From Accumulibacter sp. (GTDB lineage Bacteria > Pseudomonadota > Gammaproteobacteria > Burkholderiales > Rhodocyclaceae), in contig NZ_JAPUVI010000023.1 of NCBI RefSeq assembly GCF_029255285.1, positions 1 through 64,000 on the forward strand: a stretch of DNA of 64,000 nt, read 5' to 3'. This document shows, piece after piece, positions 58,576-64,000 of the stretch (positions are counted from its first letter, which is position 1; each line of letters starts with the position of its first letter). The notes under the pieces were generated by a model, which was not told the DNA's origin, did not search any database, and was given only the letters and a program-made list of their open reading frames with translations. The position numbers were made by a program, and so were the translations under genes.

Positions 58576-60561
58576 TCAAACCTGGACTTCTGGCCTACCG
58601 TTCGCCGAGAGCTCGGGCGTCGCGCCTCCGGGATCGAGCCTTGACTGTTGCCATCTGTCCCACATTCCGAAGTACACCCTTTCCAGCGAGCCAACGAAGC
58701 GCGGCATGTCGAAGAGCGGACAGCGGCTTTTCTCCTCGGCCAATTTCATCCTCAGGCCCCGCAGTCGCTCGGGGTGGCGCGCCAGCGCCAGAGCCAATTC
58801 GTAGTATTCATCGGGCGAGCCGGCAATCAGTTCGCCAAGGCCCGCCGCCTGCAGCAGACTGGCACCCACCCGTCCGGGAAAGGTATCGCCGAGTAGTGCG
58901 ACCATCGGCACGCCGGCCCACAAGATATCGACTCCGGTCGAATGCGAGTTGTACGGAAACGGATCCAGCGCCAGATCGGCCAACTGCAGGCGCGTCAGGT
59001 GGTCAACCCGCGTCTCGACTCGCGGAGCGAAGATCAGGCGCGCCGGATCGACGCCGCGGACCTGCACCTCGCGCCGCAGACGTTCCGGAGCGGAGCCTGC
59101 CGGCAGACTCAACCACAGGTAACTGCCGTCGGACTCGCGCAGCAAGCGGCACCAGAGGTCGAAGACCTGCGGGTTAAACTTGTAACTGTTGTTGAACGAG
59201 CAGAAGACGAAGCCCTCGGCCGGCAGTCCAGCGTCACGTCGCGACGGTGGCCGACCGAGGGCGATCGTGCTGTCCGCCGGCAGATAGCAGTGCGGCAGAT
59301 GCGCGATCGTCTCGGTGTAGTAAGGCGCCTGCGACAGAGGCGTGACCACCGGATCGCCGAGAAGATAATCGGCCAGCCTCGGGTGCCCGATCGTCCCTGC
59401 GTAACCCAGCCAGTTGACCTGGACTGGCGCACAGCGCAAGGCCAGCGCCTCGGGCCGGCCATCGGCCGTCCAGCCGCTGAGATCGATCAACAGGTCGATC
59501 GCGTCAGCCCGGATGCGCTCGGCGGTCTCGCTGACGCTGCAGTCGCGCAGATCGACGAAATGATCGAAAGCCGCTTCCAGGCGTCGTCGAACGTCGCTCT
59601 GGTCGTCTGGCCCCATCGAATAGCCGAACACCTCGACGCGCGCGCGGTCGTGCAACTCGATGACTTGCGGCATGATGAAGCCCACCGGATGATTGCGGTA
59701 ATCGGCCGACAGATAGCCAAGCCGCAGACGCGCCGGTGCCGCCGCACACCTCTTGCGCTCCGTCCAATCGACTGCGGGCGCTTCGAGTATGCTCGCCGGA
59801 ATGCTGTGGCGAGCGAAATTGGACGCCACCCGGCGCTGCTCCTCGGGACTTGCCCCGGGAAACGACAGGATGACGAAGGGGTTGTCACTCAGTTCCCGAT
59901 AGCCCTGGCTCAGCGATCTCAGCCTCTCCAACCTTGGCTGCAGTTCCTCCCAGTCGCAGCGCTTGAGGCTCGCGCAAAGGAGCTGCGACAGGACGCCGGG
60001 GTTCGCCGGATCGTTCTTCCACAGCTCGTTGAGGCAGACCCAAGCCTCGTCGGTCCGATTGCTGCTGAGCAGTGCGGCGGCCAACTGCTCGATGGCCTCG
60101 ACATAATCACCGGGATGAAACTCGATCGCCTTGAGGAAGTACGGAACCGCTGCGTCCCACTTGTGCATGCGCACCAGCGCCACGCCGTAGTTCTTGAGCA
60201 CCTCGGGGTCATCGGGTTTGAGTTCGATCGAACGGCTGAAGCAGGAGATGGACTCATCCCAGCGCATCATCGCCGAAAGCACGATACCGAGGTTGTTGTG
60301 CGCTTCCGGGTCCTCCGGGTGGCGGGTCACCGACAAGCGGGTGACCGGCAAGGCTTCTTCGTAACGCCCCTGCCCGATCAGGGCGAAGCCCAGGGCTTTC
60401 AGTGCCAGCGAATGATTCGGCTGCACGGCAAGTAGCCGCTTGGCCGCCGCCTCGACCTCGGGATACCGGAATGCCTCGACGAGACGCAGCAGGGCGATAC
60501 TGTCCGGACTCAAGGTCCGCCGTCCGCCCCTTACGGTCGACTTCCTGCCCGAATGCTTCAT
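58576..60561 (-). CDS. TPR protein with O-GlcNAc transferase-like (GT41/SPINDLY) domain
   Basis: 661 residues. Tetratricopeptide repeats at about 45-200 (ALKALGFALIGQGRYEEALP, AHNNLGIVLSAMMRWDESIS, VLKNYGVALVRMHKWDAAVP) and a GT41 catalytic part from about 275 to 640: RLRLGYLSADYRNHPVGFIM, IDLLIDLSGWTADGRPEALA, VQVNWLGYAGTIGHPRLADY, FCSFNNSYKFNPQVFDLWCR and the C-terminal PYNSHSTGVDILWAGVPMVA. Such enzymes transfer sugars from UDP-linked donors to Ser/Thr. Last gene of the pilin-to-glycosyltransferase run, 54 nt after the ABC ATPase. Acceptor protein unknown; the pilin or the six-Cys protein are candidates. Confidence 0.9.
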   Translation of the reverse strand: MKHSGRKSTVRGGRRTLSPDSIALLRLVEAFRYPEVEAAAKRLLAVQPNHSLALKALGFALIGQGRYEEALPVTRLSVTRHPEDPEAHNNLGIVLSAMMRWDESISCFSRSIELKPDDPEVLKNYGVALVRMHKWDAAVPYFLKAIEFHPGDYVEAIEQLAAALLSSNRTDEAWVCLNELWKNDPANPGVLSQLLCASLKRCDWEELQPRLERLRSLSQGYRELSDNPFVILSFPGASPEEQRRVASNFARHSIPASILEAPAVDWTERKRCAAAPARLRLGYLSADYRNHPVGFIMPQVIELHDRARVEVFGYSMGPDDQSDVRRRLEAAFDHFVDLRDCSVSETAERIRADAIDLLIDLSGWTADGRPEALALRCAPVQVNWLGYAGTIGHPRLADYLLGDPVVTPLSQAPYYTETIAHLPHCYLPADSTIALGRPPSRRDAGLPAEGFVFCSFNNSYKFNPQVFDLWCRLLRESDGSYLWLSLPAGSAPERLRREVQVRGVDPARLIFAPRVETRVDHLTRLQLADLALDPFPYNSHSTGVDILWAGVPMVALLGDTFPGRVGASLLQAAGLGELIAGSPDEYYELALALARHPERLRGLRMKLAEEKSRCPLFDMPRFVGSLERVYFGMWDRWQQSRLDPGGATPELSANGRPEVQV

Positions 60562-60615
60562 CGACTCCCCGGCATTTTCTCCCGCCCGTGGCGGGCAAGT
60601 TCGCAGCGTGGCAAT

Positions 60616-61509
60616 TCAGGACTTTCCGACGGCGTGCATGAACGCGACTTCGAGCGACAGCGTCGGGCGCACCTCGAGCAGCACGTGCCCGGCCTGGCGC
60701 AGCGCTTCGAGACGCGGCCACAGATCGGCACGCGGCACTTCGCCGATCCAGCGTCCGGAAAAATCCTCGCGCATCCCGGCCACCGGCACCTGGCCGAAGG
60801 TGCGGACGAGCACCTGTTCCTGATCGCCGCTGAGTTCGGCCGGCGCGCGCACGGCACGCAGCACGCCCTCGTGAATCAGGCCGAAACGGTCGGCGAGTCG
60901 CTCGACGTCATGCAGCACGTGCGAGGTAAAGAAGAGGGTTCCGCCGCTACGCTTGTAGTCGGAAAGAATCTCGACGACATCGCGCCGGCCGATCGGGTCG
61001 AGGCCGGACAAAGGCTCGTCGAGCACCAGCAGGCGCGGCTGGAGGCACAGTGCCTGGGCGATCGCCACGCGCTGCGTCATCCCTTTGGAAAAGGAGCGGA
61101 TCGGCTTGCCAGCCACCGCCGCCAGCCCGAGGCGTTCCAGCCATTGGCGACAGTGCGCTTCGAGCCGGTCGATCTTGACCCGATGCAAACGCATGCCCAT
61201 CGCCAGGATTTCGAGCGGCGTCAGGTAGTCGTAAAGATAGGGGTTCTCGGGCACGTAGCCCAACCCCAGCCGCGAGCGCGGGTCGTCCACCGGAACGCCG
61301 AAGATCTGCGCGCTGCCGGCACTGGCGCGGATCAGTCCGATGAGGATCTTGATCGTCGTGCTCTTTCCCGCGCCGTTTGCGCCGATAAAACCGAAGGCCT
61401 CGCCGGCCTCGACGGTCAGCGAAACGCCGCGCAGCGCCAACACCGACGACGGCGTCCATTTCTTGCGATACGACTTGTCGAGCCGCTCGATAATGATGGC
61501 GTTGGTCAT
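60616..61509 (-). CDS. ABC transporter ATP-binding protein
   Basis: 297 residues. Walker A GANGAGKSTTIKILIG, signature FSKGMTQRVAIAQAL (variant of LSGGQ), Walker B LLVLDEPLSGLDP, H-loop TSHVLHDVE. The C-terminal extension and sequence resemble the CcmA/NatA group that drives ABC-2 type exporters. The ATG at 61509 overlaps the stop of the preceding gene by four bases (ATGA), linking it to the 281-residue protein and permease. Confidence 0.93.
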   Translation of the reverse strand: MTNAIIIERLDKSYRKKWTPSSVLALRGVSLTVEAGEAFGFIGANGAGKSTTIKILIGLIRASAGSAQIFGVPVDDPRSRLGLGYVPENPYLYDYLTPLEILAMGMRLHRVKIDRLEAHCRQWLERLGLAAVAGKPIRSFSKGMTQRVAIAQALCLQPRLLVLDEPLSGLDPIGRRDVVEILSDYKRSGGTLFFTSHVLHDVERLADRFGLIHEGVLRAVRAPAELSGDQEQVLVRTFGQVPVAGMREDFSGRWIGEVPRADLWPRLEALRQAGHVLLEVRPTLSLEVAFMHAVGKS

Positions 61510-62351
61510 GGCTTCGCCTGTGCCGTCGGCGTATTGAACACCGGCCATCCGGACGGATCGAGAGCGAACCCGACGCCCAGCGGATCCTGCGGGATCTCGG
61601 TCAGCAAACCCGCCTCGACCAGCTCGTCGAGCCGAGCCACACCCTGGCCGTGGCGTTCGCGGTACTGCGTCACGGCGTTCTGCAGGCGCTCGAGATCGCG
61701 CAGCCGGCTAGCCCTGACTTGCAGATACCTGCGGAAGTTGCCCGCCGGCGAACCCGCCGCCATCGCCTCGACCATGCCGGCCGCATCACCGGTCTGGTAA
61801 CCCTTCTCGATCCACAGCGCGGCCATGTTTTGCAGCGCCCACTGGTCCTGAACGCTATCGGTCACTCGCGGCACGCCCTGCAGCAACCAATGCGCCCCGG
61901 TCGCCGGGTCGCGGCGAAAATGGTAAAAAAGAAATCCGTAGTGAAAGAGCGGATACCAGTCGAAAGTCCGCGCTGCCGAGGCCCGGCCCAAGACGTACTG
62001 CGCGGCGTCGAGCTGGCCATTCCAGGGAAGTATCGCGGCCGCGATGTAATAATTGTCGGCGTGCATCGGGTTGAACCAGGCAATGTCGCGCTGCAGTTTC
62101 GCCTGCACCGCGTAGTCCGCTGGCGCCATCCGCCCCGTGTCGGCCACCAGAACGCGAAAGCCGGCCAGATTGGCCGCCAGGTAGCGATCGCCGCCGGCCA
62201 TCAAGACCTGCGCAAAGCGCGGCAGAGAGATCAGCAGTTCGGGCTCGGTGCGATCCCTGGCAAGACCGGACAGGCGCTGCTGAGCCAGGCCGTAGACCAA
62301 CAGCGACAAGACCCCGGCCAGCCAAATCAAGGCGCCCAGCGAGCGATGCAT
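61506..62351 (-). CDS. Membrane-anchored protein of unknown function in ABC operon
   Basis: 281 residues. One N-terminal transmembrane helix (ALIWLAGVLSLLVYGLAQ), then a helical periplasmic part with tryptophan- and tyrosine-rich pairs (WFNPMHADNYYIAAAILPWN, RTFDWYPLFHYGFLFYHFRR) suggesting degenerate TPR-like hairpins, and a C-terminal part with TEIPQDPLGVGFALDPSG. Overlaps the permease by one base and the ATPase by four, so it is a genuine part of the transporter. I do not recognise the family. Confidence 0.75.
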   Translation of the reverse strand: MHRSLGALIWLAGVLSLLVYGLAQQRLSGLARDRTEPELLISLPRFAQVLMAGGDRYLAANLAGFRVLVADTGRMAPADYAVQAKLQRDIAWFNPMHADNYYIAAAILPWNGQLDAAQYVLGRASAARTFDWYPLFHYGFLFYHFRRDPATGAHWLLQGVPRVTDSVQDQWALQNMAALWIEKGYQTGDAAGMVEAMAAGSPAGNFRRYLQVRASRLRDLERLQNAVTQYRERHGQGVARLDELVEAGLLTEIPQDPLGVGFALDPSGWPVFNTPTAQAKP

Positions 62352-63163
62352 CAGGAAAACTCCCGACGTGCGAAGAGCAGGCTGGCGCCGCTTAACAGCA
62401 GGGCAATGTAGGCCACGGCCATGCTCACCGACCATATGATCGCCTCGTTACCCGGCGGTACCTGATACATTGCCCATTCGCGCCAGTCGAGGCGCGACAG
62501 GTCTGGTAACACCCGCTGGATCAGATCAATCGTCGGTTGGTAAGTACCGAGCAATTGTTGATCGCCGTCGGCACCGCGCGCCAAGTAGTCGACCGTTGCG
62601 CCCAGCGCCTTTCCCGCCACCGCGAAAGCCGCCCCAAGCGCCAGAGGCAAAACGGAAACGGTGGACAGCGCGGCGATGCACAGCGAAAAAGCGCCGACCA
62701 CAGCGGCATCGAGGGTAAGGCCGGCGATCGTGCTCCAGAACGGCAGGCCCAGCGCGGGCGGGAACTCCTGCGCATATCCGCCGCCGGCCAGCAACACGGA
62801 CAGCAAGAGCAGCAAACCGAGCACCGTCGCCGCCAGCGTCGACAAAATCATGATCGCGACCAAGCGACCGGTCAGGAAAGCGGCACGCGAAACCGGATAG
62901 GCAAGCGAGAAGAGGATGACCCGCCGGTCGATCTCGCGTGCCACCAGCTCCTGCACCCAGAACAGGTTCATCAGGATGAGCGAGAATCTGACCCCGGAAA
63001 ACCCGACGTCCAGCGCCACGGTCTGCGGCTGACGCGGTGAAAAGAACCCCGAAAGATAGGCGACGCCGATCAACAGAACACCGAGGACGAAAACCGCCTG
63101 GAAACTTCTCCCCCGCAAGCCGGAACGCAGCCCCGAGACGATGAACTCACGCATGGATGGCAT
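62351..63163 (-). CDS. ABC-2 type transporter permease
   Basis: 270 residues with six hydrophobic helices (for example FQAVFVLGVLLIGVAYLSGF, LLLLLSVLLAGGG, ALGAAFAVAGKALG). Pairs with the ATPase at 60616-61509. NosY/ABC-2 type membrane subunit; likely exports or stabilises something at the envelope. Start ATG 63163 or 63154. A hairpin lies between it and the upstream secreted-protein gene. Confidence 0.85.
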   Translation of the reverse strand: MPSMREFIVSGLRSGLRGRSFQAVFVLGVLLIGVAYLSGFFSPRQPQTVALDVGFSGVRFSLILMNLFWVQELVAREIDRRVILFSLAYPVSRAAFLTGRLVAIMILSTLAATVLGLLLLLSVLLAGGGYAQEFPPALGLPFWSTIAGLTLDAAVVGAFSLCIAALSTVSVLPLALGAAFAVAGKALGATVDYLARGADGDQQLLGTYQPTIDLIQRVLPDLSRLDWREWAMYQVPPGNEAIIWSVSMAVAYIALLLSGASLLFARREFS

Positions 63164-63171
63164 CCAGCAAA

Positions 63172-63195
63172 GGGGCGCACCCGCGGGTGCGCCCC
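63172..63195 (-). terminator. Hairpin between secreted-protein gene and ABC permease
   Basis: GGGGCGCACC / GGTGCGCCCC (63172-63181 and 63186-63195), a perfect 10-bp stem with a CGCG loop, followed on the minus strand by TTTGCTGG. The T tract is short, so partial termination is likely: pilin and secreted protein would be made in excess of the transporter. Confidence 0.55.
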
Positions 63196-63226
63196 GATTT
63201 CGAAGCCGTACTGGAAAAAGCGTCGA

Positions 63227-63622
63227 CTAGGTCGCCGGACAAGTGGTTGTCGCTGGAGTTGCCGATTGTGCAGTCACTTCCGCCGCCGTTGCCGCAGTCG
63301 TCAGGGCAGCGGTACAGCCGCTAGAAGGGCAGTCACTTGCCGCGGCAAGCGCGCAGACGGCCCCGCCGTTGCTCGAGCCGACGAACAGCTTCTTGCCCTT
63401 GGCCGATCCCGCACCGACGACAAACAGTGTGCTGCTGGAGTCAACACCGTCCACGAAAGTATTCGCCGAGCACTTCGGTGTGAAGGACACTTGGACGAAA
63501 CTGCCCGTGGCGACCGACGCCCCATCCTTGGCAGGCCCCCCGGCACAAATGGTCGCGGCATTGGCCGACATTGACGCTACCGCAGCGATGGCAAACACTG
63601 CACCAAGAACGATCTTCTTCAT
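63227..63622 (-). CDS. Secreted six-cysteine protein following the pilin
   Basis: 131 residues. Clear Sec signal peptide MKKIVLGAVFAIAAVASMSA ending in SANA. The mature part is Thr/Ala/Ser-rich with six Cys (ATIC, PKC, AVC, SDC, SGC, TTC), which could form three disulfides, and glycine/serine stretches typical of a beta-rich exposed domain. It has AGGAGA upstream and starts 30 nt after the pilin stop. Not a type IV pilin itself (no GFxxxE). It may be a pilus-associated subunit or chaperone, similar in position to the PilA-C/Spc companion of short pilins; no homology is claimed. Confidence 0.7.
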   Translation of the reverse strand: MKKIVLGAVFAIAAVASMSANAATICAGGPAKDGASVATGSFVQVSFTPKCSANTFVDGVDSSSTLFVVGAGSAKGKKLFVGSSNGGAVCALAAASDCPSSGCTAALTTAATAAEVTAQSATPATTTCPAT

Positions 63623-63652
63623 GTCATATCTCCTGTCATCATTCCGTGTCGG

Positions 63653-63835
63653 TTAGCGGGTCGAGTTGCCGATGGCGGCAGTCAACAAGTTGCGAGCGTC
63701 CGACTGCGCCGACTTGTCTTCACCTTTCTTGGTGTACTCCGAGAACTGCGGAATGGCAATGGCCGCGAGAATGCCGATGATCGCGACAACGATCATCAGT
63801 TCGATCAGGGTGAAACCCTTTTGCAGCTTTTTCAT
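63653..63835 (-). CDS. Short type IVa pilin (PilA-N type)
   Basis: 60 residues. Class III signal MKKLQKG, cleavage before F8, then [20 protein letters not shown] with Glu at +5, and [20 protein letters not shown] followed by [13 protein letters not shown]. Mature length is 53, against 130-160 for usual PilA. The mature chain aligns without gaps to short Geobacter-type PilA (shared F24, Y27, SDxRNLxTA at 38-46) but lacks the C-terminal aromatic residues. The ATG at 63835 has AAGGAG at about 63845-63850; the in-frame upstream extension is not part of the pilin. Prepilin peptidase should process it. Confidence 0.88.
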
Positions 63836-63888
63836 ATGAATGAACTCCTTCGCGTTGAGTGCAACGGACAATCCGTCGAACGAGTACT

Positions 63889-63904
63889 ATCAAGTTCCGT
63901 GCCA
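63889..63904 (-). promoter_or_regulatory. Sigma-54-type promoter of the pilin gene
   Basis: TGGCACGGAACTTGAT matches the -24/-12 consensus TGGCACG-N4-TTGCW except for the last two positions, with the correct 10-bp spacing between GG and GA (in place of GC). Predicted start about 45 nt upstream of the pilin ATG. Sigma-54 with PilR is the standard control of pilA in Pseudomonas and Geobacter. Confidence 0.6.
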
Positions 63905-63977
63905 AGATGGAATCTTCGAAAAACCTCGGCTTTTCGCTTCGTTTGATATCACCGACTGCCCATTGGCGTCACCTGCC

Positions 63978-63992
63978 TGACGAAAAGCGTCA
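63978..63992. repeat. Inverted repeat upstream of pilin promoter
   Basis: TGACG-N5-CGTCA, a perfect 5-bp inverted repeat about 75-90 bp upstream of the sigma-54 element. This is where an enhancer-binding protein such as PilR could sit; it could also be part of a terminator of a gene beyond the window edge. Confidence 0.3.
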
Positions 63993-64000
63993 GCACATCC

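Follow-up and report, generated by a model that had tools for sequence, protein, structure and literature searches.

A putative split type IV pilin operon in Accumulibacter that includes a PilGHI-like transporter and ends in a variable gene

The window analysed here, a 64,000-nucleotide stretch of contig C23 from the 4.19-Mb genome of an Accumulibacter species, carries on its minus strand (58576-63905) an operon that runs from a very short type IV pilin through a secreted 131-residue partner protein, an ATP-binding cassette (ABC) permease, a 281-residue protein and an ABC ATPase to a glycosyltransferase of family GT41 (Table 1). We consider it likely that this operon encodes a split type IVa major pilin and a PilGHI-like transporter and ends in an exchangeable gene; the main surface fibre of Accumulibacter would then probably consist of a pilin divided over two proteins, a design that resembles the one in Geobacter but sits in another bacterial group. 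Accumulibacter is a main organism of phosphorus-removing wastewater plants, which makes its surface fibre of practical interest. Geobacter has been the main setting of the discussion on split pilins, and claims about nanowires cloud the role of the partner there. The occurrence of a similar design in many other bacteria, together with a sister transporter beside one-piece pilins, provides a natural comparison that bears on three questions: why a pilin should come in two parts, which cargo PilGHI-like transporters carry, and how the decoration of pili comes about.

The short pilin and its conserved gene neighbourhood

The pilin is a short class III prepilin whose mature form starts with FTLIEL, ends with STR and consists of a PilA-N core without a globular domain. 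Its best matches in the PDB are chains of Geopilin domain 1 protein (PilA-N), 7tgg_A (E-value 2.8e-16) and 9egp_A (4.9e-15), followed by 2m7g/6vk9 at 2.9e-14. The short length is shared by its relatives, as the mature form has 51-54 residues in 82 of 82 same-strand linked pilins from 68 loci, which rules out a pseudogene or a frameshift truncation.

Related loci were found through the 281-residue protein, and all locus counts refer to the best 80 of 159 relatives, that is, to the closer ones, which come mostly from Rhodocyclales and other betaproteobacteria, Rhodocyclus tenuis (L136), Chitinimonas taiwanensis (L102) and Sulfurisoma sediminicola (L143) among them. The five core genes (pilin, partner and permease before, and ATPase after, the gene of the 281-residue protein) are found together in 66 of these 80 loci, which is not chance; taken singly, a same-strand short pilin is present in 68, a partner recognised by profile in 71, the permease in 78 and the ATPase in 80, and two loci scored as partner-less (L147 and L148) do have a divergent partner. 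Two pilin genes occur in 14 loci, the second lying between partner and permease in a few. The own genome of the window also has such a tandem pair: a second short pilin, with 54 mature residues, lies upstream at contig positions 64099-64284; it begins 99 bases past the window end, and 264 bases separate it from the window pilin. Divergent from this second pilin, and likewise outside the window (contig 64486-68554), are two genes for cytochrome b proteins, both joined by eye to ferredoxin parts and the second also to a flavin reductase part; the same gene pair stands beside pilins in another genome (G012).

The 281-residue protein was matched in 30 of 61 genomes, including the own genome, and in 24 of the 28 within the genus. 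At the level of the phylum, its family has a match in 55 of 398 genomes (E ≤ 0.001), many to the C-terminal stretch only, which placed it in several families outside the class of the window and in one more family inside that class. Among 20 regions taken from these 55 genomes, 18 hold the full trio of permease, 281-residue protein and ATPase; contig ends truncate L195 and L196. Six regions have short pilins of 52 residues (L190-L192 in the other class; L197, L198 and L207 in the same class), 13 have full-length pilins of 118-186 residues, and L194 has no pilin in view. A partner was recognised by profile in five of the six short-pilin regions; in L207, two secreted partner-like open reading frames (ORFs) are seen by eye.

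Within Accumulibacter, the short pilin was found in 24 of 28 genomes (at least 78 bits), those without a match being G004, G011, G019 and G005, in the last of which the contig stops within the locus. A profile search found no PF00114 pilin in the own genome of the window and only one among the 28, in G004, where the operon lacks a short pilin. In this genome (A. aalborgensis; L045/L073) the full-length PF00114 pilin adjoins the operon on the opposite strand and the partner ORF is without the usual signal peptide; this single case could be a natural replacement of the short pilin, or an assembly effect. Of the machinery of type IVa pili (T4aP), three components were searched for in the own genome, where PilB and PilQ scored over the cut-off and PilM was found; judged by eye, the other prepilins encoded there resemble minor pilins and pseudopilins.

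The operon had first been noted in an earlier description of the window made from its letters alone (the sequence-only reading). The six genes, all on the minus strand, stand as it described them, its gap-free match of the pilin to the PilA-N core is real, and the overlaps that it put at 1-4 bases measure 1 base between the permease and 281-residue genes and 4 bases between the latter and the ATPase gene. Full-length homologues in close relatives, which it had named as one result that would speak against it, did not turn up, and its caution about nanowire function was sound, given that the only aromatics of the window pilin are F1, F24 and Y27, with none along the C-terminal part, where conductive e-pili carry them. 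Some claims need narrowing: the pilin said to head the operon is first in the window but one of two tandem pilins, and the six cysteines ascribed to the partner are all in the window protein, whereas four recur in most relatives.

The secreted partner as a candidate pilin head

Relatives of the partner share a common core, S-x-N-V ... K-G ... G-G, and an AlphaFold2 model of the mature protein, made from 67 sequences, has five strands and a C-terminal helix (mean predicted local distance difference test score, pLDDT, 89.3). We judge the partner to be most likely a detached pilin head, because the profile of the mature protein matches the heads of full-length pilins that accompany the ABC trio in another class. 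This profile (A6), built from mature partners only and without full-length pilins, was compared with the C-terminal domains of full-length pilins beside the ABC trio, of which 8 in 22 scored above the inclusion threshold; the three compared with shuffles are those of L193 (22.5 bits, reached by 0 of 50,000 shuffles), L204 (20.1 bits, 1 of 50,000) and L195 (12.2 bits, 24 of 50,000).

The likeness of the partner to Geobacter PilA-C is no more than suggestive. In searches of the PDB, PilA-C ranked first with a profile that included the signal peptide and divergent members (A5, E 0.00081), and the PilA-C chain 9egp_B (Geopilin domain 2 protein) ranked first with profile A3 (E 0.048). When A6 was compared singly with the mature PilA-C chain, it scored 17.3 bits, which none of 99,999 shuffles reached. 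Against the two PilA-C chains, the scores of a profile of partners only (J1) were reached by 2 and 44 of 30,000 shuffles, and those of a profile that joined partners and five pilin heads (J2) by 1 and 3. Weak scores are to be expected in this comparison, since the two PilA-C chains match one another at only E 0.015.

The partners also have a conspicuous end: of 72 partners, 41 have Ser as the last residue and 52 have either Ser or Thr, compared with frequencies of 11% and 28% over the 24 residues before it, counts that rest on related sequences and are not a statistical test. The TfpO ligase of Pseudomonas, for comparison, targets a C-terminal serine.

Transporter, expression signals and the last gene

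In the Pfam scan of the window, matches were obtained for the pilin (N_methyl, 2.8e-11), the ATPase (ABC_tran, 1e-28), the GT41 enzyme (Glyco_transf_41, 2.4e-84) and, below the family cut-off, the permease (ABC2_membrane_2, 0.00022); no Pfam family matched the 131- and 281-residue proteins, and no NCBIfam family the latter. The ATPase scored below the cut-off of each of the 25 best NCBIfam models listed, which stand for exporters of drugs, lantibiotics and other kinds. The 281-residue protein is modelled as mostly helical with a C-terminal hairpin (pLDDT 93.6), and positions ~217-258 of its profile (about 42) match type II secretion G-like ORFs, mostly of 125-300 residues; one of these, L162, was inspected and is pseudopilin-like. 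Its family found nothing significant in the PDB, where the best hit was a designed protein (E 0.039) and two type II G proteins had E-values of 1.6 and 1.8. The first start codons in the ORF list would give 309 residues for this protein and 310 for the ATPase, but homologues fit the shorter starts of the sequence-only reading, which are used here.

In a tree of the trio, a single branch (Shimodaira-Hasegawa-like approximate likelihood ratio test, SH-aLRT, 99) separates 25 rows with short pilins, 19 of them from the 80 loci, from 13 with full-length pilins. The tree used 20 of the 80 loci, and the outcome was the same whether L151 was labelled as short or left unlabelled; long branches and skewed composition were flagged, and as the root was not placed, the splitting of a pilin and the fusion of its parts are not distinguishable in it. 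The operons with full-length pilins, from other families of the phylum, show the trio in two gene orders, one in L200, L201 and L206 and the other in L193, L199, L204 and L205.

Two signals frame the pilin/partner pair. A sigma-54 type site with a score of at least 10/13 lies 70-121 nucleotides before the codon of the prepilin cleavage Gly in 63 of 80 pilins, compared with 3 of 240 control windows, and a hairpin with a stem of at least seven pairs follows the partner gene in 55 of 71 loci, compared with 4.2% of shuffles; by eye, most of these hairpins are followed by T-rich sequence. A stock terminator scan does not call the window hairpin at 63172-63195, and a sigma-70/terminator scan of 63000-64000 called no promoter and a single site, within the partner gene, a yield not above that of shuffled sequence. 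The layout of promoter and hairpin fits an abundant pilin/partner pair and a scarcer transporter, which is what would be expected if the partner is structural.

The last slot of the operon, which often overlaps or abuts the ATPase stop, is probably taken by an exchangeable, modifying gene. Of 71 loci, 25, nearly all of them from one clade, have a GT41 gene after the ATPase (nine of the 80 had too little downstream sequence to be counted). In some further loci, such as L095, L129, L131 and L132, a GT41 gene lies upstream or on the other strand instead. In A. adjunctus, the GT41 gene is in two pieces (L054, 7913-9963; L079) and is broken or misassembled. Elsewhere, the slot holds sulfatase-fold proteins (4 + 2 loci), one of which is CptA-like (E 5.8e-61) and another, in L102, nearest to arylsulfatases with a weaker match to lipoteichoic acid synthase, or Wzy_C O-ligases (three loci, one with a TfpM match at E 1.4e-7), assignments in which the Pfam matches are over, and the NCBIfam matches below, the curated cut-offs. 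Two families of large uncharacterised proteins occupy it in nine and four loci. The first, of about 610-680 residues (L107, L094, L108, L111, L114, L130, L131, L133 and L137), also aligns with proteins of L127 and L149; nothing convincing was found for either family in Pfam, nor for the nine-member one in the PDB or, for the three members scanned, in NCBIfam. In 14 of 72 loci the gene in the slot is on the opposite strand.

When six labels for the last slot were placed on a tree of the 281-residue protein and the permease, 12 changes were needed (minimum five; shuffled mean 20.9) in a count over 48 labelled rows, with the 33 unlabelled rows of the 81 left uncounted; the labels are thus also clustered on the tree. 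We infer that a part of the pilus is modified and that the modifying enzyme has been exchanged between lineages. An N-X-S/T sequon stands near the pilin C-terminus in 18 of 24 loci with GT41 and in 9 of 37 without, seven loci with an unclear or upstream GT41 being left out, which, as the loci are related, is a weak lead only.

The observation of the sequence-only reading is thus confirmed and its interpretation partly supported. The idea of a split PilA-N/PilA-C-like pilin is supported by the match of the partner to pilin heads and, more weakly, to PilA-C, and the link between transporter and pilin from the presence of permease and ATPase in nearly all loci and from a tree that splits by pilin type. 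A six-gene unit with an obligatory GT41, by contrast, is rejected, with other genes or none in the place of GT41 in other lineages.

Table 1. Features of the operon in the Accumulibacter window.
Feature	Coordinates	Strand	Remarks
Short PilA-N-type pilin (type IV), 53 residues when mature	63653..63835	-	60-residue prepilin; approximately helix alpha-1 alone
Secreted partner, 131 residues, six Cys	63227..63622	-	~22-residue signal peptide judged by eye; candidate for a detached pilin head, equivalent to PilA-C
ABC-2 type permease, 270 residues	62351..63163	-	PilI-like role proposed
281-residue protein	61506..62351	-	PilG-like role proposed; long helix at the N-terminus (residues 3-28), presumed membrane anchor
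C-terminal stretch of the 281-residue protein, like type II secretion G-type pseudopilins	61572..61703 (approximate limits)	-	Profile match
ABC ATPase, 297 residues	60616..61509	-	PilH-like role proposed
Tetratricopeptide repeat (TPR)-GT41 glycosyltransferase, 661 residues	58576..60561	-	Clade-specific occupant of the last slot
Sigma-54 type -24/-12 promoter TTGGCACGGAACTTGAT	63889..63905	-	12/13 consensus positions; 70 nucleotides upstream of the pilin ATG
Putative terminator/attenuator, 10-pair G+C hairpin followed by TTT	63172..63195	-	Between partner and permease genes

Alternatives and comparison with known systems

In the mechanism that we propose, the 53-residue pilin would supply little more than helix alpha-1, be processed by a prepilin peptidase and be assembled into a fibre by the T4aP machine, whose genes lie in other parts of the genome. 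The separately secreted partner would form a heterodimer with it as the globular head, packing on the helix bundle of the filament as Geobacter PilA-C packs on that of PilA-N in the filament structure. The sigma-54 promoter would drive the pilin/partner pair, and the hairpin after the partner gene would lower read-through into the trio, which, like PilGHI of Myxococcus, may help to move the pilin, or its head, through the inner membrane or to release it from there; the product of the last gene, here the GT41 enzyme, would modify the pilin or the partner. A wider claim, which we advance tentatively and as a whole, is that the pilus is of a widespread two-part kind, with a head that forms a subunit by itself and is decorated by an enzyme; that the split pilin replaced a one-piece pilin in Accumulibacter and its relatives; that this lineage of the trio serves only split pilins; and that the swapped-in last gene gives one and the same fibre a different coating group in each lineage, probably at the serine with which most partners end.

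Several observations weigh against a split major pilin with a PilGHI-like transporter. At the level of the locus, 12 of the 80 have no linked short pilin in the scan, nine of them with less than 2.9 kb of upstream sequence and three with more (L110, L129 and L151), and the second pilin of the own genome is without a sigma-54 site (8/13). The trio is likened to PilGHI of Myxococcus by gene content, and its order differs, being G-H-I there and I-G-H in Accumulibacter. With respect to the partner, profile A1 found no PilA-C match in the PDB, and the PilA-C match of the signal-peptide profile alone was dropped as evidence, for with the mature-only A6 PilA-C fell in the whole PDB to 13th place (E 0.24), outranked by antibody chains that have the letters STKG in common with it. 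The score of A3 against PilA-C was reached by 18 of 99,979 shuffles, and hhalign gave partner and PilA-C a probability of 9.2 (P 0.0036). A profile of five pilin heads (F) scored the window partner at a level reached by 3 of 30,000 shuffles, which is partly circular, as these heads were chosen because A6 matched them; it missed the distant partner of L148 (8,619 of 30,000), and of the PilA-C chains it recognised 7tgg_a (1 of 30,000) better than 9egp_B (58 of 30,000). Finally, the own genome has further prepilins, one with 141 mature residues, and the absence of PF00114 pilins leaves room for other major pilins; the short pilin is therefore the best candidate for the major pilin, not a proven one.

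Three other explanations were considered. If the short pilin formed a homopolymeric filament alone, the secreted protein would be a separate chaperone or adhesin and not a structural head, a view with which the closeness of the pilin core to Geobacter PilA-N is compatible, as is the lowered, but not abolished, current after loss of GSU1497 in Geobacter (8.0 vs 14.4 mA, according to the accessible text of PMC2680965). The partner, however, resembles the heads of full-length pilins, and its gene, which a profile detects in 71 of 80 loci, is flanked by the pilin gene and the conserved hairpin, so that we regard a homopolymer as unlikely. The split pilin might instead act as a piston like the type II pseudopilus, in a secretion endopilus for which the trio and the last gene would belong to the route of the cargo. 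Such a role was reportedly proposed for Geobacter PilA-N/PilA-C, and the C-terminal stretch of the 281-residue protein is indeed like the G pseudopilins of type II secretion; the sigma-54 site and the T4aP machinery of the genome nevertheless fit a surface pilus, and an endopilus seems decidedly unlikely to us, although the search for a conserved cargo gene covered the last slot only. A third possibility is that the trio is an exporter for some small molecule or peptide that has nothing to do with the pilus, and only happens to sit beside a minor pilin. The exporter models that come closest to its ATPase, all of those listed being below their cut-offs, would agree with this, but the linkage of the trio to pilins in two classes and the division of the transporter phylogeny by pilin architecture speak against it; we hold it to be very improbable. 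The preferred reading remains a split pilin with a PilGHI-like transporter.

Truncated pilins in this group have been noticed before, as a 2016 survey lists Candidatus Accumulibacter among the groups that have them (accessible text of PMC5174107); the terms ABC, GSU1498 and GSU1500 occur zero times in that survey, and its accessible portions discuss partner proteins for Geobacter only. Among the open-licence PMC papers that the searches listed, most of them judged by title and abstract opening, none visibly joins Accumulibacter or other betaproteobacteria with a split pilin and an ABC trio. The occupants of the last slot can be set beside enzymes from other systems, with Wzy_C proteins (three loci) recalling TfpO/TfpM/PglL and sulfatase-fold proteins (six loci) CptA/PptA. 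The former are O-ligases and the latter phosphoethanolamine transferases, and both kinds modify pilins; we know of no GT41 enzyme that acts on a pilin.

As in the pilA-pilG-pilH-pilI cluster of Myxococcus xanthus, the putative major pilin gene is accompanied in one operon by genes for an ABC ATPase, a permease and an accessory protein, and the full-length-pilin relatives L193, L199, L204 and L205 also have the order G-H-I. The pilin of Myxococcus differs in being full length (8tj2_C, a 208-residue chain named PilA, which we take to be from Myxococcus). That pilA, pilG, pilH and pilI form one operon is stated in the accessible text of PMC3546991, where, as in that of PMC3724824, PilGHI is cited as essential for the translocation of pilin across the inner membrane, and pilGHI-like matches were reported in almost all bacteria covered by another survey (PMC6060248, accessible text).

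The closest parallel is Geobacter PilA-N/PilA-C (GSU1496/GSU1497; Geopilin domain 1/2 in the PDB), whose PilA-C has been discussed, with doubts, as a possible head domain (reviewed in PMC6201914, accessible text). The differences are that the pilin described here has 53 residues and is without the later aromatics (the 2m7g chain has 61), that the Accumulibacter-type partner has conserved cysteines, that the ABC trio and the last gene are in the operon, and that two pilin genes are present in 14 of 80 loci. Common to both are a short pilin followed by a separate gene for a secreted partner, a pilin core that aligns without gaps, and partners whose similarity is weak but in register.

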